NCBI GenBank assembly: GCA_038093975.1
Contig: JBBPTG010000188.1
Span: 1-47,053 of the forward strand
Direction: 5' to 3'
DNA: 47,053 bases
Origin: Chalciporus piperatus
Taxonomy: Eukaryota; Basidiomycota; Agaricomycetes; Boletales; Boletaceae
A program made the position numbers and the translations under genes. The notes under the pieces were generated by a model. It was not told the DNA's origin and did no database searches. It worked only from the letters and a program-made list of their open reading frames with translations. This document shows, piece by piece, positions 2,285 through 47,053 of this stretch. The stretch's first letter is position 1; the number at the start of each line of letters is the position of its first letter.

Positions 2285-3830
2285 CTACCAAACATCCATG
2301 ATCGAAACAGTTGATGAACCCCGAGTGGGACTCCAATGATGTACCCTACCTCTTACTCCATCGAACCATAACCCTGCCGAACGAAATACATAATCCCTGC
2401 TTGCTTTTGGTGGCGACACCATGCCACGAACATCGTGGCATTCATCCGGGGTACCATCAATCGTAAACTTGGTAATGAAAAACTTGCCGGTCGGGGAGGC
2501 AAGATGCAAGCTTAATAGAGTATGACGCACGTAAATCCCTCTGACATGTCCATCAGGGGAATGGTCAAGGCGGATGAAAAATCCCTCCGTGGTTAGATCA
2601 CGCCAGGGGTGATCGATGCTGAAGAGGTGATGCGCAATGATAGATAAAGGGAGGACACTGTCGTCACCAGGGTCAGCTTTGAGGAGTTTGAGATCGACAC
2701 AACGGAATTCCATGGAGGAAAAAGGCTGTGCTGAGCTTGTGGAAAACGCAACGTTGTAGTTCCAGTCATGAAATCGACTGTGGGTTGTTCGATCACGGGT
2801 ATGTCCGCGAATACGTCCTGCATTTCCCCTTCGTGGGTGAGCTTGAGGATACCAAAACCTTGGCTAGTTTGCCTCCGATTCGCAGGCACGGAGAAAGCTT
2901 GGACGAGCGTAGTACCATTGCCCGCAAAGAAAGCGATGATGTATGTATCTGTGAGCAAGACTGATGCTGATTCTGGGTCGTAGGTGGCTGTTGAAACCTG
3001 CGAATGAAGTGAGATATCATAGTGACCCCTGATGTTCTAGACGTACCAATTCCGTACTGAATTCAGGGAAATGATAGCAAGTTCTACTGCGTGTATCAAA
3101 GATAATACGTGCATTGATGATATAGAGGAATGGTCCCTGGGAACAGAAGAGCTTCATATATCCTCCAGGGTATGTCGGAATATCCAGGGATATGGTCTTT
3201 TTCAACTGACCAGTGTTGATATCCAACCGAAACTCCAACAGTGTCCTGAGAATGAAGAGATCATGGATGCCGTGTGTCAAGTGCGAAGGGATAAGACATA
3301 CCATACGACGCTCGGACTCGGCCCGGGCGCCCTCAGCGGGCCAGCCAAGAAATAAACGAGGTGTTCCTCGCTTGACGTGATCGAGCACGCATCCAACTCT
3401 TGATCATGCTCCCATAGGACCTGCACACTTTGCTGAGAATGGGGTGTCTCAGGCTCGGTATCACGCAACACGATTCGTTTGCCGGATTGCCAAGTGACAA
3501 GCCACCTTCCGCCGACGAGTATGGGCTCACCTCCCGCCGACGAGTATGGGCTCACCGCCCGTCGGCTCTAGAAACTGGGTCGAGTGGGATGGAAATGGGC
3601 CTGGGGGAGGGAGTTGTGCGTTTGCATACAAGGATCTCCAGTCATAGGTGGGATTGCGGAATCGCTTTGAGACCTGCGACGCAAATTCAGCACAGTCGTT
3701 TTGAACAAGATATGTGGCGATAAGCGTGAATTTGACTGACGACTCGCAAGCGGACGACATCGAGAGGGTTCAACAAGCAGATAATTCTGCAGATAATCTC
3801 CTCTGGGAGGACGTGTGGTCGGGATTCCAT
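2285..3830 (-). pseudogene. F-box-like gene Y, left copy (pseudogene)
   Basis: Aligns over its whole length with the intact gene at 17716-19339. It begins at 3830 with MESRPHVLPEEIICRIICLLNP (split here: F-box core LPEEII then LLNPLDVV). It is broken three ways. A stretch of roughly 90 nt after the residues QFLE is deleted. A 25-nt tandem duplication at about 3515-3565 (repeating GAGCCCATACTCGTC) shifts the frame and makes a TGA. A one-base deletion near 2715-2735 shifts the frame before the conserved MEFRCVDLK block. The C-terminal block through FDGVRG and the terminal DVW-stop are otherwise kept. Introns occupy the same places as in the intact copy. Confidence 0.85.
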
Positions 3831-3970
3831 ATTGTCGCTAGATGATGGTCGTCGGACGGAAGATGCTGGTGGGCGTGGTCATTCCCACTTCGTAGTTCCC
3901 CTTGCAATTTCGTTGAAAGTGACCCTACTTATGTTGCGCCGTGCTCGTCTTAAGATGACGAGAAGTATTT

Positions 3971-3975
3971 GTGTC
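3971..3975. repeat. target-site duplication GTGTC (left)
   Basis: GTGTC here and at 4538-4542 flank the inserted element. Removing the element and one copy restores continuous similarity to the paralogous sites near 11950 and 17465. Confidence 0.7.
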
Positions 3976-4537
3976 TGTGTCGTTTCGTACGAATCCCTTA
4001 GCGGATGGTGAGGAGGGGCCCGGACCGGCTCGTTCCGGCGCCCGGTACTGCATGGACGCGATACAAATGCCGACGGAAGTCCCGAAAGGGTTTCCCTCTG
4101 CTCCGATGGCCTGTGGGAGCATACCTTTTAATAGGTCCCTGCTGGTTTTTGCTGATCGAAAGTCTCTCTTTCCCCACTCGCCATACCCCACACATATGAT
4201 ACCAGCCTCTCGGTGGGTCGTGCATACGCTGTCGCAATCTGTCGTCCCTGCCTACTCCCCCTGAGTGATATAGCTGGGAGCGTTCCTAAACAGCCCTGGA
4301 CGGGCGGCGGTTGGGGTAGCGGTAAGCCCCCTGATGAGAGCTTTCGCAGGCTCGAAACCGCTGCTCACCCGCCCCCTTCCCTGCCTCTGTGCATACTGTA
4401 CACGGCCATGATCTTCGGAGAATGGTGTCTGACGGATGCAACATGCAGTTTCGACAGCCCAGGTACCTCTCCCTCACACACAGACATAGAACTGGGAGGC
4501 TCGCTTCGCTCACCTCCCCAGTTCTCCCCGCAGTGCA
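3976..4537 (+). mobile_element. solo LTR-like insertion carrying a hammerhead ribozyme
   Basis: A 562-bp block that starts TG (TGTGTCGTTTCG) and ends CA (GCAGTGCA), flanked by the 5-bp direct repeat GTGTC. The block is absent from the two paralogous loci in this window: about 11950-11980, and about 17450-17490 in inverted orientation. These are the hallmarks of a solo LTR left by recombination. It encodes no convincing protein. It contains several strong RNA hairpins: one near 4073-4095 with a GAAA loop, another at 4489-4524 with an 11-bp stem and one bulge, and the complete hammerhead fold at 4302-4366. No second copy exists in the window, so the parent element is unknown. A small non-autonomous retrozyme-like element is the nearest known analogy. 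Confidence 0.7.
4302..4366 (+). ncRNA. type III hammerhead ribozyme
   Basis: All parts of the hammerhead can be traced. Stem III is 4302-4310 with 4358-4366, 9 bp including two G-U pairs. U16.1 is 4311 and the cleavage-site base H17 is U at 4312, so cleavage is predicted after 4312. Stem I is 4313-4317 with 4326-4330, an 8-nt loop and one G-U pair. The core CUGAUGA is 4331-4337. Stem II is GAGC (4338-4341) with GCUC (4350-4353) and an 8-nt loop, and the first pair is G-C as usual. The core GAAA is 4354-4357. No core base is missing. The site triplet is GUU rather than the common GUC, which is still a permitted NUH. Self-cleavage is inferred from the fold. Confidence 0.8.
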
Positions 4538-4897
4538 GTGTCAGTGCCAACACTTTTCCCTTCATTTGTTCAACCACGATGATCAACCATTCCCCATCAT
4601 CCCCCCACACTGGCAGCACTCGCCCATCGCACCAAGGCTTTTGTGCAATGGCTCCCTCGACGCTATGGATGGATTTACAAGCGACCGGGTCATTCAACAT
4701 CACCTAGGCAGAGCAGAATTGTCGATTTGGTTTGGTATGGTTCTTGTATACCGTGAGCGTTTCTTCCAGGTTTCAATGACACACTGACTTGGGCAAAGGT
4801 TTTTTTGCATCACGATGTTTCGACATTGGCGTGACGCGTCCCTCGGGACAGAGCGTCGAACACGCATGCATGGACGTCTGTTACACCGGCTCCTCTC

Positions 4898-5020
4898 TAT
4901 GATCCGTACGTAGACTCGAACCTGACAGACCTCGTACCCCGCCTGTCCCTGCCAACGAGCCACACCACCATCATATCCTACGAGTCTGAACAGAGCCTTC
5001 TTCGCGGCCAACAATACTAA
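4898..5020 (+). other. short coding-like remnant, possible methyltransferase C-terminal piece
   Basis: An open stretch reads YDPYVDSNLTDLVPRLSLP then HTTIISYES before a TAA. The pattern YDPY, a helix, then TTIIISYE recalls the C-terminal part of the lysine/protein methyltransferase family Methyltransf_16, but no S-adenosylmethionine-binding motif is found upstream. The paralogous stretch at 12140-12250 has several small indels in the same place. If it is a gene remnant, it was duplicated with the F-box block and is decaying. Weak identification. Confidence 0.2.
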
Positions 5021-6139
5021 TCGGATGGGTACGAAGACTCGGTAAGTTGATCAGGCTTCAGGCTATGGATGCATCTCATTTCGTAGAGACTGTTCTAATC
5101 AGCAAGAACGATGACACCGCGGGTCCGGTCAACCTCTTTCTTCCAACCACTATTATCACTTCCCAACCTCCTTCGACTGCCTGTTCGTCACCTCCCGATC
5201 GACGACGTATAGATGTCAGTTTTCAGTTCTGTCATATCTTGATAGAGCCGTGCCCGCTGGCAGATCTAGAGCTAACCGCATTTGCGAGCTTGCCAAATCA
5301 ATACACTATTTAGTATTCATACACTATTTTTCCTTTCACAGACAGAAATCCAAGGCACCACTGGCCTTTTTGCGCGTGGTGTGATCCGGAAGCTTATCAT
5401 GATCCCGAAGAATTCATCCCGGACAGATAATTGCCGAATCCGGAACATGTACTATGTACTCCATGCCCAGATCCATTTGCTACTATCCTCTGGGGTTTCG
5501 GACGAAGGTAATATGTCTGTTACACGTAGTCGTGTGTCCATGAATTTGAACTTGGATCTCCTAGGATCTGCCCCGGTCGTCATCTCGCAGATGTTTCGCA
5601 GTGGATCCCAATGGTGACTTTACTCCGGGCGTTCGAGTTCTGAAGGCCCCGGGACCAGCAAGGTAACGTAATCGAACCAAACATAGTTCACGGAAACAAC
5701 GTAGTCGCTCCCTCGTACACTCCTCGGTGTTTTGCTGAATATTTATTGAACCCTAGCATTCCGAGCACATTTTCGTGTCTGATAATACCTCTGGCGAAGC
5801 ATATCACTGATCAACACTTTCGGCACCGTCCCCAATGTAGAAGGTGTCGAGATGGTCGAAATCTGCCTTCATCCGCGCAGCGTTAAATTTCGGAGATCCC
5901 AGAGTTGTTTTCGCGTATCGCAGAACATTCAACCATGCGTTGATCTCTATCTCGCATGTTTCCCCCAGAACTCGGGATGAGATGGGTCGGTTCCGTTCCC
6001 GAACCCGTTCACCCAACGGTCAGTGCCTTCATACTGTTCGCCCCCAGCCAAAAGCGAGGCGAGAGCCCAGCTGTTCTGAAAACGGATGGTTCGAGACTAC
6101 CACACGCCACTAATGAAACTCATTGTGAAGTCTATGCCC
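5021..6139. other. intergenic stretch without recognisable gene
   Basis: No open frame here resembles a known family. One minus-strand frame at about 5804-5975 has coding-like composition ([12 protein letters not shown], then [12 protein letters not shown]) and could be a lone exon of a decayed gene, but nothing around it extends it. Confidence 0.3.
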
Positions 6140-9135
6140 TTCGAAGAACAAGGAAGTATAGTATAGGAAGCACGAGATGATATACACGACATACACCGCA
6201 AATCCAAAGGCGTGTGTTCGAACACACAGGTACAACATGAAGGGGCTGACGATGGAGGGCATACAGTGATCGCACGGAACCTCCAAGATACAGTAATAAC
6301 GACGTATAAGGGACATCAAGGTTTAGATGACGGTTTATCAAATAGACTCTGTTCTATCCCTGGATAAAGGTTATCGAGGTCAGAACCTGAGATACGCAGT
6401 TGTGCCCAAGAGGCCCGGCCCAAAGGACGAGAAGAAAGGTGACCCTCTAGAGTCAACGTAGACTTTAACTCCTAAGCTTTGAGGTTTCCGGCCAGCTGGC
6501 AGATCCTTGAACAACTTGCGCATCACGCGCTCCTCCTCCTCCCTATCCGAGGCCTCCTTGAACTCCTTAGACCGCCCGAAGTCAATCAGCCTGAAACTCA
6601 GGTCTCCCGACGACGTGCCTTCCAGCGGGAAGTTGGTCGGACGCCGTTTTTGTACGAGGACGTTGCGAGGGTAAACAGATTCGTGCAGCCAACCTCCGTG
6701 ATGGAAACGCACAAACAGACTCGCGCATTCCTCTTGCTCCTCTACGGAAAGGCTAGTGGTATCAATAGGCTTGCCGCAGTGCTCGATCAGGAGGATTGTG
6801 CTGAGATAATTCTTTGTCGCGGATACGCTTTCTTCTCCATGCGCCCCCTTGTCCCTCAGAGTATAGAATCCATAAAATTGCGGGACGATTGCAGTCAGAG
6901 GAACAATCCTGTTGAGCCGTTTAAGGAAAGTATAACCACTCCAATGCTCGAAGAAGTAATCTGGAAACCCCTGGTAATTCCTTGCCTCCGCTTCAAGGTG
7001 TGTGTCCTCCTTGAGAGAGAGCTTGGCAATGACCTTGAACTTGGCGGTCCGTGGAACAGGGGATGTCGGATCATGGGAGCACAGGGTGTGAGGAAGGGAA
7101 GGGTTGCAGTATGACACTGTTGAATTGATGCGGATGGTGGAGGCCGATCGGGATTCAGCTGCGTTGACCTCGTCCCCTTCTGCGAGCCAAAGCAGGACAC
7201 TTGTCTTGTCTCTGTGACGCATGAGATCGTTCCATATTCCCCTTTCATCGATCATTCCAAGGACCTCCATCGGCGGGACGTCGGGTGAAACGACACAAAC
7301 GATGTCCCGCTTGAGAATCTCCCCATCCTTCTCGCAGATACTGGTAGTAGGTGGGTTACCAACCTCATCCATCTTATCTGATCCGTCTCCCGTTTGAGAA
7401 GCACCGACGGTCCCCTCAGAGGCTCCTGACGGCCGCAATATACTGTCCCATTCTCCGGTAGCTTTGAGTCTCTCGATCTCCTTCTCAGTGCTCTCCTTGA
7501 CGCAAGGAGTGCAGATCTTCGGTCTCGCGAGCAGATCCCGAGGAAGCTCCCACTCTGCCTCATATACTACCGAGTGATTACCTGTACCGGCCTTGCCTAG
7601 CGGGGAGAGGTAAAGGTGACCCTCTTCGACTTTGGTAAGGCGCCGCGGATAGGGAGGAAGCGTCACTTCGATGATTGGCTCGTGATCTTGCATCTGTTCT
7701 ATGGTCTGCGTATACCGCAGGATGATCGACGTGTGCGCCTTGAATTCCTCAAGCTCTTCTGCCTTTTCCCGCTCCTTTTTGACTTCCGTGAGTGTCGCTT
7801 CGCGCAAGTCAAGTGTGTAAGTATGGATGACATCGGGTTTGGATGTCCACGCGTGAGTATACGATGTTGTCGCGACAGCAGAGAGCAAGTTGAACGGGTC
7901 GTGCACGTAGAGAGTTTGTGGTAAGAGGTAGGGTGGGATTCGCTCCTGTAGAAGTACCTGTGTACGCTCGAAGGGGATGGACGGCCACGACGAGGGATAG
8001 TGAGACGGGTGGAAGGGAGATGTGATAGGGATATCCAACCCGTGTGCCGATGTAGTATCGCGAGCTGCCGAGCATCCGGAGTGCTCCGTCCTGGATCGAT
8101 TCACTTCTTCCTCGATCATTTCGATGAGAGCTTGTGTTGATGCAACGTTCTGCACCTTGGGCTCCCCCTCCGACTTTGCCCACTCAATCTCATGTTTGGC
8201 CTTTCGAAGTTCCCCAAATTCTTTCATTGTCCGCAGGAGTTGACTGCTCGTCATGACAGACGTTTCGTTCGGGTTACTAGCCGGAGTCGTCTTAACTTTG
8301 AAGAAGTCATGAAGTGTCGCTCCCCATGCGTAATCATCAGGAGTACGCTTTCCCCTGTGCTTGTTAGATTGTTTGATAGGCTTTCCTCCATCCTCACGCG
8401 GCCAGAAGAGGGACACAGCGTGCTTTTGACCGGAGGAGGGCAACATGAGGTGGTGCATCTTTTCCTCGCGAAGCTGGCGGGCCCGACCTCGAGTTCCAAG
8501 ACGAGGGTGAAGATCGAGTGATGAGCTCTTTGTACTCTTTGTACCAGGGTCGACAAGATTTCTAGATCTCTGTGAGATCGTATCTTACGACAAGTGACAA
8601 AACATACACATCCACATGCATCTCTTCACTCGCGCCTGGTTCTTCTGCGTTCCCCTCGCGATCGGCAGAGGGATGGAGTGACATTGGAGTAGATTCTGCC
8701 AGTGTTGTGGTTGCATCCACGACGCCACTCGGGGTCGTCGCATCGATTCTGATAGAAGCAGTTAGATATTTAACGATAGCCGACGATAAGACGTACGATG
8801 CTTCAATATCCATGCTGGCTTCGACAGTCCCTGCGTTCTTCGAACGATCAGGTTTGCAATCGTCGATTTGGAGTGCTGACCCAGTGGGAAAAAGAGCGGG
8901 GCAGGCTGGGAGGACACGACTCCGAGTCCTAATTGTCCGACGCGAAGCCGATGGGCGCTACATCAGCCACGTGAGTGAGCAGTACTAGTAGAACTGCATG
9001 AGGAAAAGAACTTGAAGAGATAGTGCGGCGGGAACTAAGTTCGAGAACCCAACTCGGTGTTTGGTGCTCAAAACTATCTGATGCGGGCGCTGAGACCAAG
9101 AGGTCTGGAGAACTAAGTACTGCAGTCGTATACAG
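6140..9135. repeat. kinase module K, left arm of inverted duplication
   Basis: This segment, read on the minus strand, matches 27895-30810 read on the plus strand. The match covers about 300 bp of promoter, both small introns, the coding region and about 250 bp of 3-prime flank. Confidence 0.8.
6380..8813 (-). CDS. protein kinase-like protein K (left copy)
   Basis: Three exons, 8813-8797, 8748-8610 and 8569-6380, give 781 residues. The introns are 48 and 40 nt and match those of the paralogue at 28052-30522. Kinase-fold landmarks are a Gly-rich loop (GKAGTGNHSVVY), a VAIK-type lysine (VIAKLSL) after a long low-complexity insert, the loop HESVYPRNVL and a DFG motif (LIDFGRSK). The catalytic HRD aspartate is a serine in HES, so phosphotransfer may be lost or unusual; the paralogue has the same change. 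It may belong to the expanded fungal kinase-like families; I cannot pin the subfamily. The equivalent of the paralogue's start codon has become GGG, so translation probably starts 27 codons later at MDIEAS. The C-terminus also differs after GRKPQ. Confidence 0.75.
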
Positions 9136-17183: not shown

Positions 17184-17715
17184 AAAAAGATTGTCTGAAA
17201 GAAATCCGTTGGCATAAATCATACGTAAATCCATCAAACCTGGTGCGGGTGGGGACAACGCTTTTTTCAGCGGTGAAAACGACACCCATCGCTACTATGT
17301 ATATGCTCACATCTATACGTCGTCCGGAGGTGGTTTATAGCCACCAAAAGTCGAAGGGGGTTGGGTAACATAGAAGGGATAAGGATGAATCACACGTAGG
17401 GCGGGCGACTCGGAGTTGATCATCGTGGTTGAAGGGAAAAGAAGTTGGCAACGTGACTGCCACAAATACTTCTCGTCATCTCAGACGACTCGGAGCACGG
17501 CGGGTTAGATGGGCAACTTATCCACTTTCAACGAGATATTAGCGTTGAACATCAGGTAGATGACGAGGAAGACACAATGGCAAGGAGAGCGACACTGACG
17601 GGAAGTACATACTCTAGTACTGGCTGGAAAGACATGCCAGGTATTCCACGGGCTCCGATGGCCGCGCCGCCAGACACCATCTTAACGACGACCGTCATCT
17701 AGCTATAGCGACGAT

Positions 17716-19339
17716 ATGGAATCCCGACCAAACATCCTTCCAGAGGAGATTATCTGCAAGATTATCTGCTTGTTGAACCCTCTCGATGTAGTCCACTTGC
17801 GGGTCGTCAGTTACATTTACAAATCTTGTCCGAATCGACTGTGCTGAATTTGCGTCGCAGGTCTCAAAGCGATTCCGCGATCTCACCTATGATCCGTTGG
17901 TCTGGAGATCCTTGTATGCAAATGCACAACTCCCTCGTCCCCCAGGCCCATCTCCATCCCAATCGATCCAGTTTCTAGAGCAAACGTTGGTGCGATCTGC
18001 ACAGTTAGCACGAACGTGGACGTCTCAGCCAGTTCAGGTCATCAGAAGTCATAGCCTGGGCGTAGAATCGTCATCAATGGGCGGTGCGCCCAGAGTCGTC
18101 GGCGGGAGGTGGCTTATCACTTGCCAATCCGACAGACGAATCGTCTTGCACGATACCGAGCCTGAGACGCCCCGATCTCAGCAAAGTGTGCAGGTGCTAT
18201 GGGAGCAAGAACAAGGAAATCTCACTCTCTGGGATGCATGCTCGATCACGTCGAGCGAGGAACACCTCGTTTATTTCGTGGCTCGCCCGCTGTTGGTGCC
18301 CGGGCCGAGTCAGAGCGTCGTATGGTATGTCTTGTCCCTTCGCACTTGACACACGGCATCCATGATCTCTTTATTCTCAGGACACTGTTTGAGTTCCGGT
18401 TGGATATCAACACTGGTCAGTTGAAAAAGACCATATCCCTGGATATTCCGACATACCCTGGAGGATGTATAAAGCTCCTCTGTTCCCAGGGACCATTCCT
18501 CTATCTCATGGGTGCACATATTGTCTTTGATACACGCAGTAGAACTTGCTATCATTTCCCTGAATTCAGTACAGAATTGGTACGTCCAGAACATGAGGGA
18601 TCATCATGATATCTCACTTCATTCACAGGTTTCAACAGCCACCTACAACTCAGTATCGGTATCAGTCTTGGTCACAGATACACACATCATCGCTTTCTTC
18701 GTGGGCGATGGTACCACGCTCGTCCAAGCCTTTTCCGTACCCGCGGATCGGAGGCAAACCAGCCAAGGTTTTGGGATCCTCAAGCTCACCCACGAAGGAG
18801 AAATGCATGACGTATTCATGGACATGACCGTGATCAAACAATCCACAGTCGATTTGATGACTGGAATCATAACGCTGCGCTTTCTACAAGCTCGGCAAAG
18901 CTCTACTCCTTCTATGGAATTCCGTTGTGTCGACCTCAAACTCCCCAAAGCTTACCCTGGTGACGACAGTGTCCTCCCTTTATCCATCATCGCGCACGAC
19001 CTCTTCAGCATCGATCACACCTTGAGTGATCGACCCATGCATGGCTTTGTCATCCGCCTTGGCCATTCCCTTGATGGCCACATTAGAGGGATTTACGTGC
19101 GTATTACTACTGGGCCAACACCTGATTCGACTACCTCCAAGTTTTTTATTACCAAGTATACGATCGACGCTAGCCCGGATGAATGCCATGAAGTTCGTAG
19201 CACGTTGTCGCCACCACAAGAAAGCACGGATCATGTATTTCGTTCGGCAGGGATATGGTTCGATGGGGTGAGAGGTACGGTGCCTCATTGGAGTCCTGGT
19301 CCTGGTTCATCACCTGTTTCAATCATGGATGTTTGGTAG
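17716..19339 (+). CDS. F-box-like protein Y (intact copy)
   Basis: Exons 17716-17805, 17861-18324, 18381-18579 and 18629-19339 give 487 residues. The start is set by the F-box, which follows at once: LPEEIICKIICLLNPLDVV, then LRVVSKRFRDLT and VWRSLYA across intron 1. The rest (GGRWLITC, RRIVLHDTEPET, a repeated pattern of beta-strand-like stretches, LTHEGEMHDV, CVDLKLP, FTIDASPDE-type blocks and FDGVRG) resembles the uncharacterised C-terminal half of many agaricomycete F-box proteins and may be a propeller-like fold. As an F-box protein it would bring a substrate to an SCF ubiquitin ligase; the substrate is unknown. It diverges from the neighbouring S gene and is a paralogue of X, with identical intron positions (exons 2+3 total 663 nt in both). 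Confidence 0.85.
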
Positions 19340-20748: not shown

Positions 20749-22445
20749 ATGGAATCCCAGCCCAGAGATCTCCCAGTAGAAATCCTATGCCAGATTCTCT
20801 GTTCTTCGAGTCCTCTCGATGTCGTCCGCTTGCGAGTCGTAAGTGACATCCAACTTGCAGCCGTTGCTCATCTTCCTCGCATCTATTCCGCTAAATCATG
20901 ATGCTCTGCTGCTTTCGTACGTAGCTCTCAAAGCGATTTCGCGACATCACGCACGATCCTTGGATATGGAGAACGTTGTATGCAAACGCCCAACTCCCTC
21001 GTCCTCCAGGCCCATTTCCCTTCCATTCGATCCGATTTCTAGAAATAACTTTGACACGATCTGCAAGATTGGCGCGAACGTGGACGACTCGGCAAATTCG
21101 AGCCATCAGAAGTGAAGACTTGAACGTTGGATCGTTGCCAATGAGCGGTGTTCCCGCACTTGTCGGCGGGAGATGGCTAGTTAGCTGCGAGTCCTACAAG
21201 CGAATCATCCTGCACGATACAGACCCTGAGACACACCAGACTCAAGATCCCGTCCGAGTCCTATGGGAAGATGAGCAAGAAAATCTGAAGTTTTGGGATG
21301 CGTGTTCGATCATGTTCAACGAGGAGCTACTTCTATATGTCATCTTTCGCCCCTCAAAATCTCCAGAAGTGTCATGGTGAGTATGAAGTGTTTCCGGTGC
21401 TGCCCGTGGTGCCTTCATGATTGATCTATGATACAGGAAAATGATGGAGTTTCGGTTGAATTGTGACACTGGCCATATGAATGAATATACACTCCTGCAA
21501 GTTCCTGTGATCCGGACTTCCAATCAATTTACCTTTGTGCATCTCGTCTGCAACCAGCATTCGTGGCTCTATCTCCGTGGTGCACGCTTAATCCTTGATG
21601 CCAAGACTCGAATTTTTTTCCATTTTCCTGAAGTCGATTTACGACTGGTATGTGTGATTCCCAGCACACGAGATCATTTTATGACTGACATTGTATATAA
21701 AAAGCCGCCTGGAATGCAATCCATGGGCCCTCACATAGTGGTACTCACGAATACCCATGTTGTCGCTCTATATTCCCGTTACGGCGACGGTGCAACACTT
21801 GTCAAAGTGTTCATCGTTCCTACAGATCCACAACCGACTGAGCAGGGTTCTTACTTCCTCCAGCTCACCCACGAAGGCGAAACACGCCCCAATTTCCCAA
21901 CCCTTCTTGTCATCACACAGCCTTCCATCAGTCCGATCACTGGATCCACAACATTGAGGTTCCTGCAGTCACTAGAGAACAACACGAGCACACATTCTGC
22001 CCTTCAGTTCCGCTGCATTGATATAACCCTTCCCGACATTCACGCCAACGTCGCCTTGCCCTTGCCAATTTCTATTCATTCCCATGACCTCTTCGGCATC
22101 GATGACGCCTCGTGCCATTCCCTTGACCACAAAAGTGCCACTTACATAGAACATTCTCCCGCCGGACACGTCAGGGGCATTTATATCCGTCATGCCGCTC
22201 CTCGGTCGCTCGCTCCTGGCCCTCCCAGTTCCTTGATCACCAAGTTCACGATCGATGCGAGTCCGGATGAATGCACCGCCGTTCATGGCTCCTTTTCGCC
22301 ACTCATAGCGCACAAGGGCGACGTGCTGTCTCGTTCGACTGCCATACTGTTCGATGGAATAAGGGGGAAACTTTATTATGGGATCCCGGGAGGGAGCAGG
22401 CGTCCAAGCCCTCATGCGAGCGTTGCGATCGTGGACGTCGAGTAG
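20749..22445 (+). CDS. F-box-like protein X (intact copy)
   Basis: Exons 20749-20838, 20925-21376, 21437-21647 and 21705-22445 give 497 residues. I choose the ATG at 20749 (MESQPRDLPVEIL) over the in-frame ATG at 20716 because Y and the left X share the MES start and the upstream stretch is not conserved in frame. The third intron (57 nt) could be read through. Its equivalent in the left copy is 58 nt, and with it removed exons 2+3 total 663 nt as in Y, so it is a true intron. F-box motif: LPVEILCQILCSSSPLDVV then LSKRFRDIT. The C-terminal part is homologous to Y (FTIDASPDEC, FDGIRGKLYYG). Role as an SCF substrate adaptor is inferred from the F-box. Confidence 0.85.
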
Positions 22446-28051: not shown

Positions 28052-30522
28052 ATGTCAGCACTCCAAACCGACGAGCTATCTTGCAAACCTGATCGTGCGG
28101 AGAACGCGAAGACTGTTGAGGCTAACATGATAATTGAAACAGGCGACACGTACGTTCTTATCGTCGGCTATCGTTCAATATTTAACTGCTTCGATCAGAG
28201 TCGATGTGACCCCGAATGGCGTCGTGGATGCAGCCGCATCATTGGCAGAATCTACTCCAAACTCAGTCCATCCCTCTACCGATCGCGAAGGGAACGCAGA
28301 AGAACCAGGCGCGAGTGAAGAGATGCATGTGGATGTGTATGTTTCGCCACTTGCCGTAGGATACGACCTCACAGAGACCTAGAAATCTTGTCGACCCTGA
28401 TACAAAGAGTACAAAGAGCTCATCCCTCGATTTTCACCCTCGTCTTGGAACTCGAGGTCGGGCCCGCCAGCTTCGCGAGGAAAAGATGCACCACCTCATG
28501 TTGCCCTCCTCCGGTCAGAAGCACGCTGTGTCCCTCTTCTGGCCGCGTGAGGATGGAGGAAAGCCTATCAAGCAATCTAGCAAGCACAGCGGAAAGCGTA
28601 CTCCTGATGATTACCCATGGGGAGCGACACTTCATGACTTCTTCGAAGTAAAGACGGCTCCGGCTAGCAACCCGAACGAAACGTCTGTCATGACGAGCAG
28701 TCAACTCCTGCGGACAATGAAAGAATTTGGGGAACTTCGAAAGGCCAAACATGAGATTGAGTGGGCAAAGTCGGAGGGGGAGCCCAAGGTTCAGAACGTT
28801 GCATCAACACAAGCTCTCATCGAAATTATCGAGGAAATGAATCGATCCGGGACGGAGCTCCCCGGATACTCGGCAGCCCGCGATGCTGCATCGGCAGCCG
28901 GGTTGGATATCTCAATCACACCTCCCTTCCACCCGTCTCACTCTCCCTCGTCGTCGTCATACATCCCCCTCGAGCGCATGAACACCCAGGTACCTCTCCG
29001 GGAGCGAATCCCATCTTACCTCCTACCACAAACTCTCTACGTGCACGACCCGTTCAACTTACTCTCTGTTATGTGGAGAATGTCGTATAACTACGCGTGG
29101 ACGTCCAAACCCGATGTCATCCATACTTACACGCTTGACTTGCCCGAAGGGACACTCGCGAATGCCGAAAAGGAGAGGCAGAAGGCAGAAAAGCTTGAGG
29201 AACTCAAGGCGCATACGTCGATCATCCTGCGGTATACGCAGACCATAGAACAGATGCAAGATCACGAGCCAATCATCGAAGTGACGCTTCCTCCCTACCC
29301 GCCGCGCCTCACCAAAGTCGAAGAGGGTCACCTTTACCTCTCTCCTGTAGGCAAGGTTGGTACAGGTAATCACTCGGTAGTATACAAGGCAGAGTGGGAG
29401 CTTCCTCGCGATCTGCTTGTGAGACCGAAGATCTGTACTCCTTGCATCAAGGAGAGCACTGAGAAGGAGATCGAGAGACTCAAAACTACCGGAGAATGGG
29501 GCAGTACATCGCGGCCATCGGGAATGGCCTCGGAGGGGACCATCGGTGCTTCCCAAACGGGAGACGGATCAGATAAGGTGAACGAGGTTGGTCTCCCGAC
29601 TATCTGTGAGAAAGATGGGGAGATTCTCGAGCGGGAGATCGTTTGTGTCGTTTCACCCGATACCCCGCCGATGGAGGTCCTTGGGATGATTGATGCAAGG
29701 GGAATATGGAATGATCTCATGCGCCACAGAGAAAAGACAAGTGTCCTGCTCCGATTCACAGAAGGGGACGAGGTCAACGCGACTGAACCCCGATCGGCCT
29801 CCATCATCCGTATCAATCCAACAGTGTCATACGGAGATCCTTCCATCCCTTGCATCCTGTGCTCCCATGATTCGGCGTGTCCTGTTCCGCGGACCGTCAA
29901 GTTCGGGGTCATTGCCAAGCTCTCTATCGAGGGGGACACACACCTCGAAGCGGAGTCAAGGAATTACCAGGAGTTTCCAGATTACTTCTTCGAGCATTGG
30001 AGTGGTTATGCATTCCTTAAACGGCTCAACAGGATTGTTCCTCTGAGTGCAATCGTCCCGCAATTTTATGGATACTATACTCTGAGGGACAAGGGGGCAC
30101 ATGGAGGAGAAAGGGAATCAGCGACCAAGAATTATCTCAGCCCAATCCTCCTGCTCGAGTACTGTGGCAAGCCTATTGACACCACTAGCCTCTCCGTAGA
30201 GGAGCAAGAGGAATGCGCGAGTCTATTTGTGCGTTTCCATCACGGAGGCTGGCTGCACGAATCTGTTTACCCTCGCAACGTCCTCGTACAAAAACGGCGT
30301 TCGACCAACTTCCCGCTGGAACGCACGTCGTCGGGAGATCTGAGTTTCAGGCTGATCGATTTTGGGCGGTCTAAGGTGTTCAAGGAGGCCTCAGATAGGG
30401 AGGAGGAGGAGCGCGTGATGCGCTTGAAGTTGTTCAAGGATCTACCAGCTGGCCGGAAACCTCAAAACTCCTTAGCAACTTATGGTGGAGTTTTCGCGAG
30501 GGTTCAAATCCCGGATAACTGA
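28052..30522 (+). CDS. protein kinase-like protein K (right copy)
   Basis: Exons 28052-28149, 28199-28334 and 28375-30522 give 793 residues. The second intron is only 40 nt but is kept in the paralogue and is needed to join the acidic linker (GNAEEPGASEEMHVD) to the main exon. Kinase landmarks: Gly-rich loop at residues 404-410, lysine 593 in VIAKLS, loop H706-E-S-V-Y-P-R-N713 and D740-F-G742. The residue at the catalytic aspartate position is Ser708, so it is a possible pseudokinase. A large insert separates the Gly-rich loop from Lys593. The last 18 residues come from a short inserted sequence that replaced the original C-terminus. Partner and substrate are unknown. Confidence 0.8.
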
Positions 30523-38622: not shown

Positions 38623-41600
38623 ATGTCTTCCTCCACCTCGACCTTCGCCTCCATCCCCACGCTCAACGGCTCGAACTACCTTACTTGGGCCCCCAAGATG
38701 CGCGCCTACCTTATGTCCATCGGAGTTTTTTATACGACTCAGAAGGCAGAAGATGATGGTGATGCCGATTGGTCTAAGAACACGGAGAAGGCAGTCGGTT
38801 CTCTCTACCTGAAGCTCAACGCTTCTCTCCAACGTCGCTGGGAGGAGGAGAATAACGCCAAGGCCCTTTGGGACGCCCTCAAGGACGCCTTCTCCCATCC
38901 TACTTTCGCAAACGTTTACGAAGAGTACGACACCTTCGAGAACATCAAGTTCTCTCTTCACGAGTCCCCGGCTGGGACTTTCTCGAAACTCAGGACCGCG
39001 TTCCAAAAGTTCGACCAGTACAAGTTCCCTCTCTCGGATCGTTGGCAGATCTTGATGACGTTGAGGAAACTGAAAGTACTTCCTTACATGTCAACATTTT
39101 TACAGCTGCTTAACGCGAAGTCTGGAGATTCGTTGAAGGACGTCACGACTACGGAGATACAGATCACAGGCACGGGCGAAACGGCAGTGAGAACTCCACA
39201 CGTCGTCACTCGACCTGGCACCCTTCCATTTACCCTCGACGAGATTGAGCAAACCGCTCTTGGTGCTTGGTCTCAACAAAATTCTTCGAAGGCTCCCGCG
39301 CCTGCAAAGCCTGCGCAGACTGCTCAGGCGTCCAAGATCTCGGCTGTCAAGCCGAAAGGTCAGGACCCGCAGTTTACACAGCAGCAGCAGCAGCCGACGA
39401 ACTCGAACAACGGTCAAGGGAACGCCAACTCGAATGGCAAGAAGAAGAAGAAGCGCGGAACTCGTTCCGCAGAAGGTCAGGCAAAGAACGAGACTCGCAA
39501 GTCTCGTGCCAATGCCAACGACGCTTCGGCGTCCTTCGCCTTCTCTTCCTTCACCACCCCTCCCGTTGTTATCGCACCTGCAGCCACCGACTTCACCACG
39601 CCCGCCGTCGACCCTCGTCAACTTGCCCACTCCTCTGGTGCTACCCAATATGGGCCACCAGCTTTTCCACAGACCCTGCGCAGCATTGACCTCGCGCACC
39701 GCATTCTGATCACGCCAACTCCCCAGACGCTCCGTCGTCTCGACAAGGTGGCAAACCCACCTTCGGACACGTTGTCTGAGGAACGGCCCAACAAGTGCCT
39801 CCATTTAATGGAGCGCGTCGACGTTTCGACCCCGTTTGCATCTGTCGTGGAACTCCCTGACGAGGTTCCCATCGCACCTCTCGCTCCGCCCCCTCCTCGT
39901 CGCCTTACCTTGCGCGAACGTCTCGAAGCACGTTTGCCGGAGACTCCGTCTCCATCACCATCTCCACCACCAACGAATGACCCCATTGTCCGCTTGCCCG
40001 GACATTGTCGGCAGTCGACGTTCGGTGAGATTGACCCTGGCACCTTCGCTCTGCCATTCATTACCACGGTTGCTCCTCTACCGGAAGAGGATATAGTCTC
40101 TCTGGGGGAGGAATACGATATCGACGACTACATTGAGCGTTTTTACGCCGATGATGAAGTCGAGTCGCAACCACTTGATGAGAGGATCGGAGAAGTCTTC
40201 TCAGACATGGGAGAGTACTTTGACTTCGACTATGATATGACTGAAAGGTCTGTCTATTCACCCTCGCATCTTAGCGATGACAACTCACAACTGCCTTATT
40301 CACAGCAGTATGTAGAGTATATACTGTCATCTGTCTTAGATAGCGAAGTACCAATGTGTATGTCGATGTTCGATCTCGACCCGTGTGAAGAATGCTTTAA
40401 GTTGAGCGATCCTGACGTTAAGTCGGATATTTGGCTCCTTGACTCTGGAGCATCGTCTCACTTCACTTATAATATGTCCGATTTTTCGGAATACAAAGAA
40501 TTTGAAGTCCCTAGGCAATGTAAGACAGCGAACGGTCTAGTACCTATCAAAGGTCAAGGCACTGTCTTGGTTAATTTCAAGGGATCTATCGTCAGATTAT
40601 CCCCTACCATCTATATGCCCACAACGGACATCAAGCTCATTTCTATGGGCACTTTACTCCAAGATCAAGACATCACTCTACGGTCCGCTGGCAACGGAAC
40701 ATTGATAGATTTTTGGCATGCCCGTAAAAAGGCTACCATTCTTCAGTTCCACTCGCATCCTGGCTCCACAATGTATTTTATACGCGCCGATGTTGTCAAG
40801 ACCAAACAATTCTCAACTGTGAAGTTATATGCGACAGACTATGATGTTTTACATCGTCGCTTAGGACATGCTTCCAAAGATGTCATACGTGCAGCTAAGA
40901 AGCACCTCAAGGATTTCCCTGCGGTTGAAATACCAGCGGATGATCATGTTTGTCCTGGCTGTCAACTAGGCAAACAACCTAATCGTGCATTCCCGCCTAC
41001 TCAACGACGTGCCACTGAACCGTTTGAACTTGTTCACTCGGATCTCAAGTCGTTTGAAACGGAATCGTACTATAGGAACAAATATATCATCGTTTTTTAT
41101 GATGATTTCACTTCAATGTCTTGGATCAAGCCGTTGCGAAACAAAAATGACGCACTGCCTGCTACTCGACAATTTATCAAAATGGTCCAAACGCAATGGA
41201 AAAGCCAAGTAAAAGGCTGGATGTCCGATGCTGGAGGAGAATATAAGTCTAAGGCTTTTGACGAAATGCTTCGAAATGAAGGAATTCTCATATATCAAAG
41301 CGCCCCACACACTCCTCAGCAGAACGGCAGAGCAGAACGGCATATCCGTACGCTCATGGACAAGGCACAAGCAATGCGTCTTCATGCTTGCTTACCATCA
41401 TCATTCTGGGAATTCGCAGTTCAACATGCTCGGTATCTCCATAATAGAATCCCTAACAGGAGACTTAACTGGAAAACTCCATTAGAGCTACTAACTGGCG
41501 AACTTTCATCTCTCAATCACGTTCGCATATTCGGATGTGGTGCCTATGTGCATCTTCCCGAAGACACTCGTGGTGGAAAGTTGCAACCAAAATCACAGCT

Positions 41601-43887
41601 AATGGTTTATCTGGGAGTTTCTCCTACGAACGAAGCCAATATGCAATTTTTGCGACCTAATAATTCCATCCACACGTCTGCACACGCAGTTTTTGATGAG
41701 AATTTATTCCCCAAGTGCCCAAATTCAAAACCTCATCGTGCTGTATCCCTACCGAGACGAAGACGTCATCATCAAGAAGATGGAGACGCTAATCAAGAGG
41801 ATGGAGACACTAATCATCCTGATAGTGATCCAGAGGATGAGAACCCCCGTCGCCCAGAGCAACCACGGGTTCCACCCCCTCAACGGCCTGAGGAAATACC
41901 CCGCGATGATGAATCAGCGGATGATGACGAAGAAGAAGCAGAAATTCCTCCTGCACCAGTCACACCCCCTCGTCGTGTACCGACGAACAATGCTCCACCA
42001 GCATTACCACCTAAAAGCGACCGTACTAGTCGCAGAGAACGTCCACAACGTGATCGCAAGATCCCGCTTCGACCTGGAAATGTCTACGGCGAACGCGAAC
42101 ATCCCACTAAAACAGTAAAAGAAGTGGAACGCCTCTCACGCTGGAAGGAACTCACTGGAGAATCATCCTCCAAAGTACCAAATATTCCCGGTGGTTTACC
42201 ATCAACTCCTGAGCCACCCGCTCCTGAAACAGCATCAGCTGAGGACTCAGAAACGGAGATTGAACGACTAACCCGGGAAGGGGGAGTAAACTTGGCACGT
42301 TATTTATGTGCTAAAGCTATCAATGATACAGAGGAAAAACCCAATCACCGCGAATGGTCTTTCAAAGACATTCAGCGATTACCACCCGACGAACAGAAGC
42401 TTTGGCGTGAAGCATGCATGAAAGAATTGCAAATGCTCAAAGAACGCAAAGTGTATGAAGTAGTCGACAGACCCAAAAATCGGAAAGTCATTAAAAACCG
42501 ATGGGTCTTTGACGTCAAAACCGACGGTCGTAAACGCGCCAGATTGGTTGCGAAGGGTTTTTCCCAGATCGAAGGAATTGATTACGATGAGATCTTCTCT
42601 CCAGTTGTTCGATTTGAGACAGTGCGAATGATGCTTGCACTCGCCGCTCTAGAAGATTGGCACATCACTGGACTAGACGTGCGTTCCGCATATCTATATG
42701 GTCCACTGGAAGAAGAAATCTATATGGAATTTCCAGAAGGTTTTGCCACACCTGAGTTAGCCGGCAAAGTTCTCAAACTTCGACGCGCACTATACGGCCT
42801 TAAACAAGCTGGTATTACATGGTGGCGCGAATTAAAGAAGTCTATGGAGGAACTAGGCTTTAAAAAGATTTACTCAGACGCAGGCATTTATGTCTACACA
42901 CGCGGCAAAGTCTATGTCGTTGTTTATGTGGATGACGCCTTCTTTTGCGGTCCCAACAAGCTTGAGATTGATCAACTCAAAGCAAAGTTTATGAAACGAT
43001 GGGAATGCCGCGATCTCGGTGAGACAAATGAATTTCTCCGCATGAGAATTCGTCGAGACCGATCCAAACGCTTGATCTTTGTTGATCAATGCGATTACCT
43101 TGATAAGGTGGTTGAACGTTGCGGTATGCAAGATGCAAAACCAGCACGCACCCCTTTGCCTCAGGGATATTATCCGATCAAAAACACACAAGATGTTGAC
43201 CCTGTGTTACGGACGCGTTTCCAAGTGGTCATCGGATCCCTACTCTATATCATGCTCGGCACACGCCCGGACATTGCCTACGCAGTTACTCAACTTGCGA
43301 GACAATCGGCAAATCCGACTCAAGAGCATCTTGATAAAGCACTCTATATCGTGAAGTACCTAAAGGGAACACGAGACTATGCTCTCGTATACGATGGAAA
43401 GAGTGGTTCTGGTTTAATCGGACTCTCTGACTCTGATCTCGGAGCTGATCCAGAACGTTCACGCTCGCAGACAGGATACTTCCTGAAACTCGCGAATGCA
43501 GCTTTCATGTGGAATTCGCATCTTCAAAAGAATACAGCGAACAGTACCACTGAAGCTGAGTACATTGCTTTGTCTAATTGCTGCAACCAAATCATTGGTG
43601 TAAAGCAAATGCTGAGTGAATTGGGATATAATCTCAAACCCGTTCCTCTCTGTGGCGACAATCAGGGATCGATATTTTTATCGCAAAATCCCGTCAACCA
43701 GAAAAAGCATAGACACATACGTATTGCTTATCACACAATTCGTGATGCAATCGAGGAAAAGCACGTTGAACTTTTCTACATCGAAGGAAATGAAAACCCT
43801 GCAGATATCTTTACAAAGAATCTGGGTTATATCAAATTCGAGAAGTTCCGTTCACTCCTTGGTCTAGTGATACATCGCGCCGATTAG
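38623..43887 (+). CDS. copia Gag-Pol polyprotein
   Basis: One uninterrupted ORF of 1754 residues. Gag is residues about 1-210 (NYLTWAPKMRAYL, LWDALKDAF), followed by a Lys-rich linker without a CCHC zinc knuckle and an acidic stretch. Protease: DSGAS at 607. Integrase: HRRLGH from 744 with CPGCQLGK, catalytic D807, D869 and E905 (D-35-E). Reverse transcriptase: RARLVAKGF to YVDD (1435-1438). RNase H: SDSDLGAD near 1603, TTEAEYIA, CGDNQG and HIRIAYHTIRD. No stop or frameshift is present, so the element could be autonomous. Gag and Pol are in a single frame, as in many fungal and plant copia elements. Confidence 0.95.
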   Translation: MSSSTSTFASIPTLNGSNYLTWAPKMRAYLMSIGVFYTTQKAEDDGDADWSKNTEKAVGSLYLKLNASLQRRWEEENNAKALWDALKDAFSHPTFANVYEEYDTFENIKFSLHESPAGTFSKLRTAFQKFDQYKFPLSDRWQILMTLRKLKVLPYMSTFLQLLNAKSGDSLKDVTTTEIQITGTGETAVRTPHVVTRPGTLPFTLDEIEQTALGAWSQQNSSKAPAPAKPAQTAQASKISAVKPKGQDPQFTQQQQQPTNSNNGQGNANSNGKKKKKRGTRSAEGQAKNETRKSRANANDASASFAFSSFTTPPVVIAPAATDFTTPAVDPRQLAHSSGATQYGPPAFPQTLRSIDLAHRILITPTPQTLRRLDKVANPPSDTLSEERPNKCLHLMERVDVSTPFASVVELPDEVPIAPLAPPPPRRLTLRERLEARLPETPSPSPSPPPTNDPIVRLPGHCRQSTFGEIDPGTFALPFITTVAPLPEEDIVSLGEEYDIDDYIERFYADDEVESQPLDERIGEVFSDMGEYFDFDYDMTERSVYSPSHLSDDNSQLPYSQQYVEYILSSVLDSEVPMCMSMFDLDPCEECFKLSDPDVKSDIWLLDSGASSHFTYNMSDFSEYKEFEVPRQCKTANGLVPIKGQGTVLVNFKGSIVRLSPTIYMPTTDIKLISMGTLLQDQDITLRSAGNGTLIDFWHARKKATILQFHSHPGSTMYFIRADVVKTKQFSTVKLYATDYDVLHRRLGHASKDVIRAAKKHLKDFPAVEIPADDHVCPGCQLGKQPNRAFPPTQRRATEPFELVHSDLKSFETESYYRNKYIIVFYDDFTSMSWIKPLRNKNDALPATRQFIKMVQTQWKSQVKGWMSDAGGEYKSKAFDEMLRNEGILIYQSAPHTPQQNGRAERHIRTLMDKAQAMRLHACLPSSFWEFAVQHARYLHNRIPNRRLNWKTPLELLTGELSSLNHVRIFGCGAYVHLPEDTRGGKLQPKSQLMVYLGVSPTNEANMQFLRPNNSIHTSAHAVFDENLFPKCPNSKPHRAVSLPRRRRHHQEDGDANQEDGDTNHPDSDPEDENPRRPEQPRVPPPQRPEEIPRDDESADDDEEEAEIPPAPVTPPRRVPTNNAPPALPPKSDRTSRRERPQRDRKIPLRPGNVYGEREHPTKTVKEVERLSRWKELTGESSSKVPNIPGGLPSTPEPPAPETASAEDSETEIERLTREGGVNLARYLCAKAINDTEEKPNHREWSFKDIQRLPPDEQKLWREACMKELQMLKERKVYEVVDRPKNRKVIKNRWVFDVKTDGRKRARLVAKGFSQIEGIDYDEIFSPVVRFETVRMMLALAALEDWHITGLDVRSAYLYGPLEEEIYMEFPEGFATPELAGKVLKLRRALYGLKQAGITWWRELKKSMEELGFKKIYSDAGIYVYTRGKVYVVVYVDDAFFCGPNKLEIDQLKAKFMKRWECRDLGETNEFLRMRIRRDRSKRLIFVDQCDYLDKVVERCGMQDAKPARTPLPQGYYPIKNTQDVDPVLRTRFQVVIGSLLYIMLGTRPDIAYAVTQLARQSANPTQEHLDKALYIVKYLKGTRDYALVYDGKSGSGLIGLSDSDLGADPERSRSQTGYFLKLANAAFMWNSHLQKNTANSTTEAEYIALSNCCNQIIGVKQMLSELGYNLKPVPLCGDNQGSIFLSQNPVNQKKHRHIRIAYHTIRDAIEEKHVELFYIEGNENPADIFTKNLGYIKFEKFRSLLGLVIHRAD

Positions 43888-45316: not shown

Positions 45317-47053
45317 TTATGTGGGCGTAGCCCGTGTTTTTAATGGACTGGACAGGTTTGCCATGAGTCTATCAATTCTGGCTGGTCCGTTGTCCGTGAG
45401 ATTTTCTGGACGTTTCTGGAATAGGAACAAGAAATCTGCGGGATTAATGGATAGAGCACGAGGTGCGGCTGGATTCTTTGCGTAGAAATCCTTCAAGCAG
45501 CCTTTGGCATTTGCCAGATTAGCTCTTGGTTCCCAAGTGCGATCGGTCTCATCATAACCTTTCCAGTGCACGAGGTATTCCAGTTTCTTTCCCTTGTACC
45601 GTGTGTCAACGACGTAGTCGACTTCCCATTCGTTGTCTCGTTCTTCCGTAACAAGGACTGGTCCAGGCCGTGCTGTAGGCTGGCCCTCAAGGCGGTCCTT
45701 GTAAGGCTTGATTCGACGGACATTAACCACAGGGTGGATTCGAATGTCTCGTGGAAGCTGTAGTTTTACTGCATTTGGTCCTGCCAAGGCGATAATTTTA
45801 AATGGACCCAGCCATCTTTCAGATAATTTGTCTGATGCGCGTGTCAAACGTAAGTCTGTGGTTGACAGCATGACTTGCTGTCCAATTTCATATTCGGGTG
45901 CAGCCGAGCGGTGTTTGTCGGCTAGCGATTTCATGTGTTCCTGGGCCTTGGCCAGGTTCTTTTCTACATCGGCAATCGTTTTTCGCATTGCGTCCGTGAA
46001 TGATTTGGCAGCTGGTGCCTGAGAAGTAGAAGCATATGGCTCTGTGCCCATGCGTGGTTCGTATGACCGTGTGACTTCAAACGGCGATTTCTTCGTGGAA
46101 GTGTGATACTTGTTATTAATAGAGAACTGGGCGATGGCTAGCCAGTCTACCCATTGGTTTTGTTTATCGAAGCAGTAGATTCGTAGGAACTTTCCAACTT
46201 CTTTGTTTACGATTTCTGATTGTCCGTCTGTCTGCGGATGGAATGCTGTACTGAGCTTGGTATCAATACCAAGAGCATTATTGATTTCTTTGGCTACTTG
46301 CGCCGCGAACTGCGGGCCTCGATCTGATGTAATGGATAAAGGAAGTCCATGATGCTTCCATACGTGAGAAAGGAATAGGCGAGCGGTTTCCAGGGCCGAA
46401 CACGTTTTTGTGCATGGTATGAGTTCGACTTCTTTCGAGAAGCGATCTACTACCGTCAAGATTGCATTAAAACCACGTGATTCGGGTAAACCCGTAATGA
46501 AATCCGCAGTGATGTGTTGCCAGGGTCCGCTAGGGACCGGTAAGGGTTGGAGAAGGCCTGCAGGTGCCTGATTCGTTCCTTTGAATCTTTGGCAGGTCTG
46601 ACAGTGGGACACGTAATCTTTTACGAGAGTGGCGAGTCCAGGCCACATGTAAGATCGTTGAATGAGTTCTAATGTTTTTTCGTAACCGGGATGTCCTGCA
46701 GCCGGTGTGTCGTGATGTAAACGAATGATGTCCATTCGGAGTATGTTATCTTCCGGAATGTACAGACGATCTTCTTCGTCGTAGAGTAAGCCATCAAGCT
46801 TTTCATGGATGCCCTTCTTTTGGAACTTCTGGACTTCTGTCTCAGATACCTTGCACGTTGCAAGGAAGACTCTTTGCTTGATCCGTGCCCCTTCATCTGT
46901 CAGGGCGACTGTGCGGATATTTTCGGGAGCAATGACCAATATTCCTTTATTGTCATTTTCAACTCCGATGGCGTGGTCTTCTCGACGTGAGAGAGCGTCA
47001 GCTTTTGCCATAGAAGGTCCAGGTTTGTAAACCCAGAGCATATTGAATCTAGA
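45317..47053 (-). CDS. Ty3/gypsy chromovirus Pol, C-terminal part (cut by window end)
   Basis: The frame is open to the right edge. Seen in order: end of RNase H (AKADALSRRED), the integrase zinc domain (LHHDTPAAGHPG, then CQTCQRFK), catalytic residues in TADFITGLP, TSDRGPQF and QTDGQSE, the GPFKII-type GPY/F module, and a C-terminal chromodomain (VDYVVDTRYKGKKLEYLVHWKGY, split: VDYVVDTRYKG and LEYLVHWKGYDETDRTWEP). The chromodomain marks it as a chromovirus, which targets insertion to chromatin. Reverse transcriptase, protease and Gag lie outside the window. No stop or frameshift is visible. Confidence 0.9.
   Translation of the reverse strand, partial: SRFNMLWVYKPGPSMAKADALSRREDHAIGVENDNKGILVIAPENIRTVALTDEGARIKQRVFLATCKVSETEVQKFQKKGIHEKLDGLLYDEEDRLYIPEDNILRMDIIRLHHDTPAAGHPGYEKTLELIQRSYMWPGLATLVKDYVSHCQTCQRFKGTNQAPAGLLQPLPVPSGPWQHITADFITGLPESRGFNAILTVVDRFSKEVELIPCTKTCSALETARLFLSHVWKHHGLPLSITSDRGPQFAAQVAKEINNALGIDTKLSTAFHPQTDGQSEIVNKEVGKFLRIYCFDKQNQWVDWLAIAQFSINNKYHTSTKKSPFEVTRSYEPRMGTEPYASTSQAPAAKSFTDAMRKTIADVEKNLAKAQEHMKSLADKHRSAAPEYEIGQQVMLSTTDLRLTRASDKLSERWLGPFKIIALAGPNAVKLQLPRDIRIHPVVNVRRIKPYKDRLEGQPTARPGPVLVTEERDNEWEVDYVVDTRYKGKKLEYLVHWKGYDETDRTWEPRANLANAKGCLKDFYAKNPAAPRALSINPADFLFLFQKRPENLTDNGPARIDRLMANLSSPLKTRATPT

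Follow-up and report, generated by a model that had tools for sequence, protein, structure and literature searches.

A small LTR-less repeat with a type III hammerhead motif in the agaricomycete Chalciporus piperatus, probably a mobile element copied through RNA

The closest described relatives of the locus reported here, as far as the available excerpts of the cited sources go, are hammerhead-bearing repeats of plants, animals and fungi. Plant retrozymes are non-autonomous, noncoding elements of a few hundred base pairs that carry a type III hammerhead, long terminal repeats (LTRs) and 4-bp target-site duplications (TSDs) (PMC4918200). Metazoan non-LTR retrozymes are small dispersed elements without LTR, PBS or PPT, and contain type I hammerheads in tandem repeats of 150-300 bp (PMC7761336). 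Telomere-associated Penelope-like elements and Terminons combine a reverse transcriptase frame with a type I hammerhead, followed by a 3′ end at CCCTAA-type repeats (PMC6431247). Among fungi, hammerheads accompany interspersed repeats in the ascomycete yeast Yarrowia lipolytica (PMC3088659), and five type 3 loci were found with Rfam 11 in the genome of the agaricomycete Pleurotus ostreatus (PMC5040776). A 2020 review assigned type III hammerheads mostly to plants and the circular RNA agents infecting them (PMC7761336), and the word stem 'fung' is absent from the available text of two hammerhead reviews (PMC6155905, PMC7761336); viroid-like RNAs have been reported from fungi (PMC13343976). Among the matches listed from the open-licence literature, no title or abstract opening described a basidiomycete type III hammerhead element, an absence that by itself weighs little.

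We analysed a 47,053-nt stretch of contig JBBPTG010000188.1 of Chalciporus piperatus (contig label C188), hereafter called the window. That its host is a basidiomycete, as had been claimed from the letters alone, agrees with a decarboxylase-like protein encoded in the window, whose best named relatives are from Agaricomycetes (e.g. Boletus reticuloceps, 64% identity). On the plus strand, positions 3974-4529 form a 556-bp dispersed element, family A, which is delimited by ends common to other contigs and by empty sites and has a type III hammerhead that lies about 160 nt from the 3′ end of the element. We consider it likely that this agaricomycete element is mobile, small and non-autonomous, and that it is copied through RNA.

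Family A resembles plant LTR retrozymes in size, in being non-autonomous and noncoding and in its hammerhead type, but it has a single hammerhead, neither an LTR pair with hammerheads nor a 4-bp TSD, and a fungal host (PMC4918200). It was rejected as a retrozyme of this kind, and also as a solo LTR, for want of a TSD and because its ends do not fit. With metazoan non-LTR retrozymes it shares the small, dispersed, LTR-less format, whereas its hammerhead is of type III, stands single and sits in a unit of ~550 bp (PMC7761336). Unlike telomere-associated Penelope-like elements and Terminons it has no telomeric 3′ end, and at 556 bp it is too short to encode a Penelope-type reverse transcriptase of its own, which excludes it from that class (PMC6431247). 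By their description, the Yarrowia repeats are alike as fungal interspersed repeats with hammerheads, the host being an ascomycete yeast rather than an agaricomycete (PMC3088659). The Pleurotus loci are alike as type III annotations in an agaricomycete genome, again by description, which in the accessible text names no carrier element (PMC5040776). The first-pass annotation knew of no standard hammerhead annotation in mushroom genomes, and the absence this implies is contradicted by the Pleurotus loci. The motif class is already known, in mushrooms too by annotation. The apparent novelty lies in the element that carries it: small, without LTRs, housed in an agaricomycete and outside the retrozyme, SINE, Helitron and Penelope-like definitions tested.

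The hammerhead occupies positions 4302-4366 on the plus strand. Direct reading and a descriptor script both recovered the complete type III architecture, i.e. CUGANGA, GAAA, the U16.1-A15.1 pair, H17 and three stems, open at stem III. The 5′ strand of stem III (GGGCGGCGGU, 4302-4311) ends in U16.1 and forms 10 contiguous pairs with the 3′ strand (ACCGCUGCUC, 4357-4366), which shares the last A of GAAA (4354-4357), so that A15.1 is position 4357. H17 is U4312, and cleavage is predicted 3′ of this base, a position deduced from the motif; the six family A copies examined have T or C here, never G. Stem I pairs GGGGU (4313-4317) with GCCCC (4326-4330) over 5 bp, the last a U.G pair, and measures 5 bp in four of the six copies. 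The loop between its strands (AGCGGUAA) includes GCGG at 4319-4322, which could pair with UCGC of loop II (4344-4347) in a possible kissing pseudoknot. Across the stem I/loop I region, four of six copies (window, C65, C358 and C66) contain GCGG, and loop II reads UCGC in five of six and UUGC in C190. Pseudoknots that tie stems I and II together are common, and critical for fast hammerheads, by published account (PMC3088659). The catalytic core CUGAUGA (4331-4337) is followed by the stem II hairpin GAGCUU-UCGC-AGGCUC (4338-4353), in which 4338-4343 pair with 4348-4353. The first-pass annotation had described a complete type III hammerhead at these coordinates, with this cleavage position and a 5-bp stem I, all of which we recovered; its lengths for the other two stems fell short, 4 bp being given for stem II and 9 for stem III, which measure 6 and 10 bp; the tenth pair of stem III is U16.1-A15.1.

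The descriptor matches sites with the core, U16.1, an H17 other than G, a stem II that begins with a G-C pair and stems of a minimum length. It matched the window exactly once over both strands, with 5, 6 and 10 bp in stems I, II and III. In 3.48 Gb of random sequence (single-strand, order-1 Markov, window composition), eight matches had at least 4 bp in stems I and II and at least 3 bp in stem III, and in one of these eight stem III reached 6 bp or more; calculated from this single match, ~3e-5 such motifs are expected by chance in the window and ~0.02 in the genome of the host (G000; 35.5 Mb, 484 contigs), the sole fungal genome searched. An exact 29-base pattern had no match in viral contigs.

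A covariance search, which the first-pass annotation had proposed as a check, gave a divided answer. No family reached its gathering score in an Rfam scan of the window. On the window copy, RF00008 aligned to 4317-4363 with 19.8 bits (E 0.25; gathering cut-off 48.5 bits), close to the lack of a significant score that the first-pass annotation had named as refuting the ribozyme. The register of this alignment was also a different one: UAGCGGU, the loop I strand, is paired there with ACCGCUG, and stem I is unformed. The diverged copy C358 scored 32.2 bits (E 0.0051) in the register of the first-pass annotation, and was the only match at E ≤ 5 among eight diverged family A loci plus C97 (C154 and C82 left out). 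The 48.5 bits by which Rfam defines the family are reached neither by these two copies nor by the type III hammerheads of two further families, B (36.0 bits) and C (31.2 bits), described below. Over the whole genome RF00008 had two matches, both below the cut-off, on C16 (31.2 bits) and in the window (19.8 bits); with 68 of its 7,852 candidates scored at first look and both C358 and family B missed, this search is no census. Sub-cut-off RF00008 matches mean little alone, as they also turn up in 7 of the 14 prokaryote genomes used as controls.

A 121-base hammerhead query had 11 matches in the genome, 10 of them beyond the window, and a 901-base query had 14. Leaving out C37 (a flank match only) and joining two pieces on C97 gives 12 family A loci: C188 (the window), C97, C154, C65, C358, C66, C111, C190, C18, C34, C82 and C50; the search was seeded by shared words, and these counts are lower bounds. 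Beyond the window, the 307-base 5′ part of the element was found only on C97 and C154, and the 160-base 3′ part only on C97 and C82. As 10 further loci match it and two match either end, the hammerhead region is better conserved than any other part of the element.

By a strict descriptor (stems of at least 3 bp), the whole motif is present in three of the 12 loci, i.e. the window, C65 and C358. Both other copies have diverged from the window with the motif intact (C65, 76.7% identity over 146 columns; C358, 81.7% over 104 columns). Their stem I end pairs are U-A and C-G respectively, compared with U.G in three copies including that of the window and an unpaired end in C18, and loop I of C65 is longer than that of the window. 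The remaining loci are damaged in various ways. The nearest copy, C97, is without the 5′ half of the motif, with a 61-bp gap between its two matching pieces; the core reads CUAAUGA in C66, CUGAUGG in C190 and CUGGUGA in C111 and C50; C18 has CUGACGA, a permitted change, and a broken stem I; C34 is without a core, which is also lost in C154 and C82. Homologues with an unconserved core had been named in advance as evidence against the ribozyme, and such copies were indeed found, if in softened form: the motif is incomplete in nine of 12 loci and intact in three. Six copies retain both halves, and in these 88.1% of cells were paired, as compared with 38.7-53.2% with slid partners, a control that favours structures read from the same sequences. 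In the same six copies, the paired cells were not above shuffles (417 of 500 reached the value) and neither was covariation, which failed as proof of a hammerhead, 308 of 500 shuffles equalling it.

The 5′ end of the element at 3974 is common to the window, C97 (99.7%) and C154 (74%), and its 3′ end at 4529 to the window and C97. A terminal hairpin (4488-4525, plus strand, from RNA folding) stops 4 bases before the 3′ end. On C37 (L030), a duplicate of window positions 2400-3979 (99.4% identical) continues after GTATTTGTG, which ends at 3973, like window positions 4530-4546 at 16 of 17 bases, and then diverges. A paralogous site without the element also lies within the window itself, on the minus strand at 17415-17497, with the junction between 17461 and 17460. 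Here GTATTTGTG is followed directly by GCAGT..GCCAAC..TTTTCCCTTC..AACCACGATGATCAAC; the left side is 88.6% identical to C37 over 44 bp, and the right side resembles, by eye and with gaps, the window from 4530 onward. We read C37 and this 17.46-kb paralogue as empty sites of the element. If so, the insertion would comprise 556 bp and be precise, with a target-site duplication of 0 bp at the empty site. It is probably recent, because the C37 duplicate is only 0.6% diverged.

Related frames and repeats occur in the window at 2285-3388 (minus strand) and at 18079-19224 and 21441-22445 (plus strand), of which 18079-19224 is an inverted relative, 86% identical to C37. Since 2400-3979 (99.4%) and 18079-19224 (86%) are both related to C37, duplications are frequent in this region. 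Judged by eye, a 1754-aa open frame at 38623-43887 (plus strand) looks like a Copia-type polyprotein, a 574-aa frame at 45317-47041 (minus strand) resembles a Ty3/Gypsy integrase end, and two paralogous frames, one of 692 aa at 6380-8458 (minus strand) and one of 678 aa at 28486-30522 (plus strand), have an end that looks kinase-like.

No tail or terminal repeat links the element to a known enzyme. The longest direct repeat in window positions 2500-6300 has 25 nt and lies outside the element, and the three frames of at least 100 aa that overlap the element all run across its 3′ end. Helitrons start with 5′ TC, end in 3′ CTRR preceded by a hairpin, and insert between A and T. Family A has the TC start and the 3′ hairpin, but ends in ..TTCTCCCC and sits between G and G, and was rejected as a Helitron. 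It was likewise rejected as a tRNA-derived SINE or a Helenus TRIM, since ARAGORN found no tRNA, the A and B boxes are weak and there is no TSD; Helenus TRIMs of fungi have a TSD of 5 bp (PMC10886601).

We infer that family A moves through RNA. In this scheme, the transcript would cut itself after U4312, and the cutting of tandem or read-through transcripts would release units with 5′-OH and 2′,3′-cyclic phosphate ends, perhaps as circles. A reverse transcriptase provided in trans, possibly by telomere-associated Penelope-like elements, would then copy the RNA into breaks.

While the type III hammerhead motif is real, self-cleavage by the window copy is open to doubt on the basis of predicted folding. 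As an isolated 65-mer, the hammerhead of the window copy lies 2.0 kcal/mol above the minimum free energy (MFE) structure; the gap is 1.5 kcal/mol for isolated C358, 2.6 for family B and 6.5 for family C. With at least 20 flanking bases, the gap is 8.5-10.8 kcal/mol for the window copy, 3.4-7.6 for C358 and 13.7-18.4 for C65, and stays at 2.6 kcal/mol for family B, the least ambiguous of the folds; these nearest-neighbour energies omit core and loop contacts. The MFE structures of the window copy in 85- and 121-base folds pair AGCGGU of loop I with the 3′ strand of stem III. Such a competing fold in longer transcripts counts against efficient cleavage by the window copy. The helix itself does not discriminate between the two structures, because it has at least 5 bp in five of six copies and stem III has at least 5 bp in six of six.

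The hammerhead may accordingly be a fossil, once active in the family and now dead in the window copy, which would fold into the competing rod. This is a real possibility, although we lean against it. It would fit the better folding of the rod in flanked transcripts and the decay seen in nine of 12 loci, the nearest copy C97 among them. However, the window copy has lost neither a core base nor any of the three stems, it was inserted after a duplication that is now 0.6% diverged, and the isolated hammerhead comes within 2.0 kcal/mol of the MFE before any stabilization by core or loop-loop contacts. A fossil would be compatible with an RNA-copied hammerhead family and would deny activity to the window copy only.

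The conserved block could also be the internal Pol III promoter of a tRNA-derived short element, whose D-arm-like and T-arm-like parts mimic a hammerhead. The A box would be TGGGGTAGCGG and the B box GGCTCGAAACC, one and two changes away from the respective Pol III consensuses. The B-box stretch is the best conserved one, C34 retains GGTTCGAAACC without CUGAUGA, and the plus strand of the window has four such rows (in three places) as compared with 0-2 in each of eight Markov sequences. Yet A/B pairs of like quality are common, with five places in the window over both strands, and ARAGORN predicted no tRNA in the window or in 15 loci examined. Conservation also continues upstream of the B box across CUGAUGAGAGC, a stretch dispensable for Pol III, and the boxes would fall in the middle of the element rather than at its start. 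Taken together, we regard the promoter as improbable. That the motif arose by chance in an unrelated repeat and was copied along afterwards is least probable of all: the low Rfam score and a covariation not above shuffles would suit it, but only ~0.02 such motifs are expected genome-wide, every part is retained in C65 and C358, whose stem I end pairs differ, with a longer loop I in C65, and other repeats of the same genome have further hammerheads.

These further hammerheads were read by running the descriptor over all collected loci. A pattern, CTGATGAG N4-30 CGAAA, matched the genome 62 times (35 forward, 27 reverse) as compared with 16 for the reversed control; 30 of these matches were excised as loci, 13 more belonged to loci collected before and the other 19 were seen as matched letters only. 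Family B has two copies on the minus strand, L052 (C8:411816) and L065 (C46:86532), with a textbook type III hammerhead (stem I 7 bp, stem II 4 bp, stem III 5 bp plus 5 past a mismatch; RF00008 E 4.1e-5). They share ~541 bp at 98% identity, and their 3′ end lies in telomeric CCTAACCCT-type repeats. Family C is a single type III hammerhead, L041 (C16:281857-281912; RF00008 E 8.1e-5), 74% similar to B over 85 bp, which runs into CCTAACCCTA ~190 nt downstream. The type III loci of B and C thus both run into CCCTAA telomeric repeats. Family A is similar to B or C at chance level only, and resembles them in layout alone.

Family D comprises eight loci with CTGATGAGTYATTATAACGAAAC (L009, L011, L015, L016, L021, L023, L024 and L025), seven of which match the descriptor for a type I hammerhead, with a stem II mismatch in C344. 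Stems I, II and III have 8, 4 and 4 bp, stem III being closed by a further hairpin, and the MFE structure of one copy keeps stems I and II, with part of the core paired to the stem III side. Rfam did not find this type I hammerhead at E ≤ 5, and L011 alone gave 12.8 bits (E 3.5) with RF00008. The copies run into CCCTAAYC-type sequence, and an open frame with reverse-transcriptase motifs (L082, 600 aa) lies upstream of the intact D copy on C425. This 600-aa piece scored 23.3 bits with Pfam RVT_1, below the cut-off of 29.6, and had no PDB match; the C-terminal 203 aa matched no Pfam family, and in PDB only at E 0.88. The frame is probably Penelope-like, as judged from its telomeric setting, the hammerhead and reverse-transcriptase motifs that we take to be those of this group. 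With telomere-associated Penelope-like elements and Terminons, D shares a reverse transcriptase frame, a type I hammerhead before the 3′ end and a 3′ end at CCCTAA-type repeats (PMC6431247). Two further D copies (C425:1241-1512 and 5753-6008) are without the same 58 bp including the ribozyme core, a loss that resembles the 61-bp ribozyme loss in the family A copy C97.

Beyond family A itself, we tentatively propose a wider scheme, which we think somewhat doubtful: agaricomycetes may harbour small non-LTR type III hammerhead retroelements, or 'fungal retrozymes' (A, B and C), whose self-cleaved, perhaps circular RNAs would be reinserted by a reverse transcriptase that telomere-associated Penelope-like elements supply; through their CCCUAA 3′ ends, B and C would prime on telomeric overhangs. 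The layout in question is a unit of 556 bp in A and ~541 bp in B, with the hammerhead ~160-200 nt before the 3′ end. Type I hammerheads, located at telomeric retroelements, are present in this genome as well. If the scheme is true, type III hammerhead elements of fungi would stand as a chromosomal equivalent of the reported fungal viroid-like RNAs (PMC13343976), and would offer a tractable system for asking what a ribozyme does in a retroelement.
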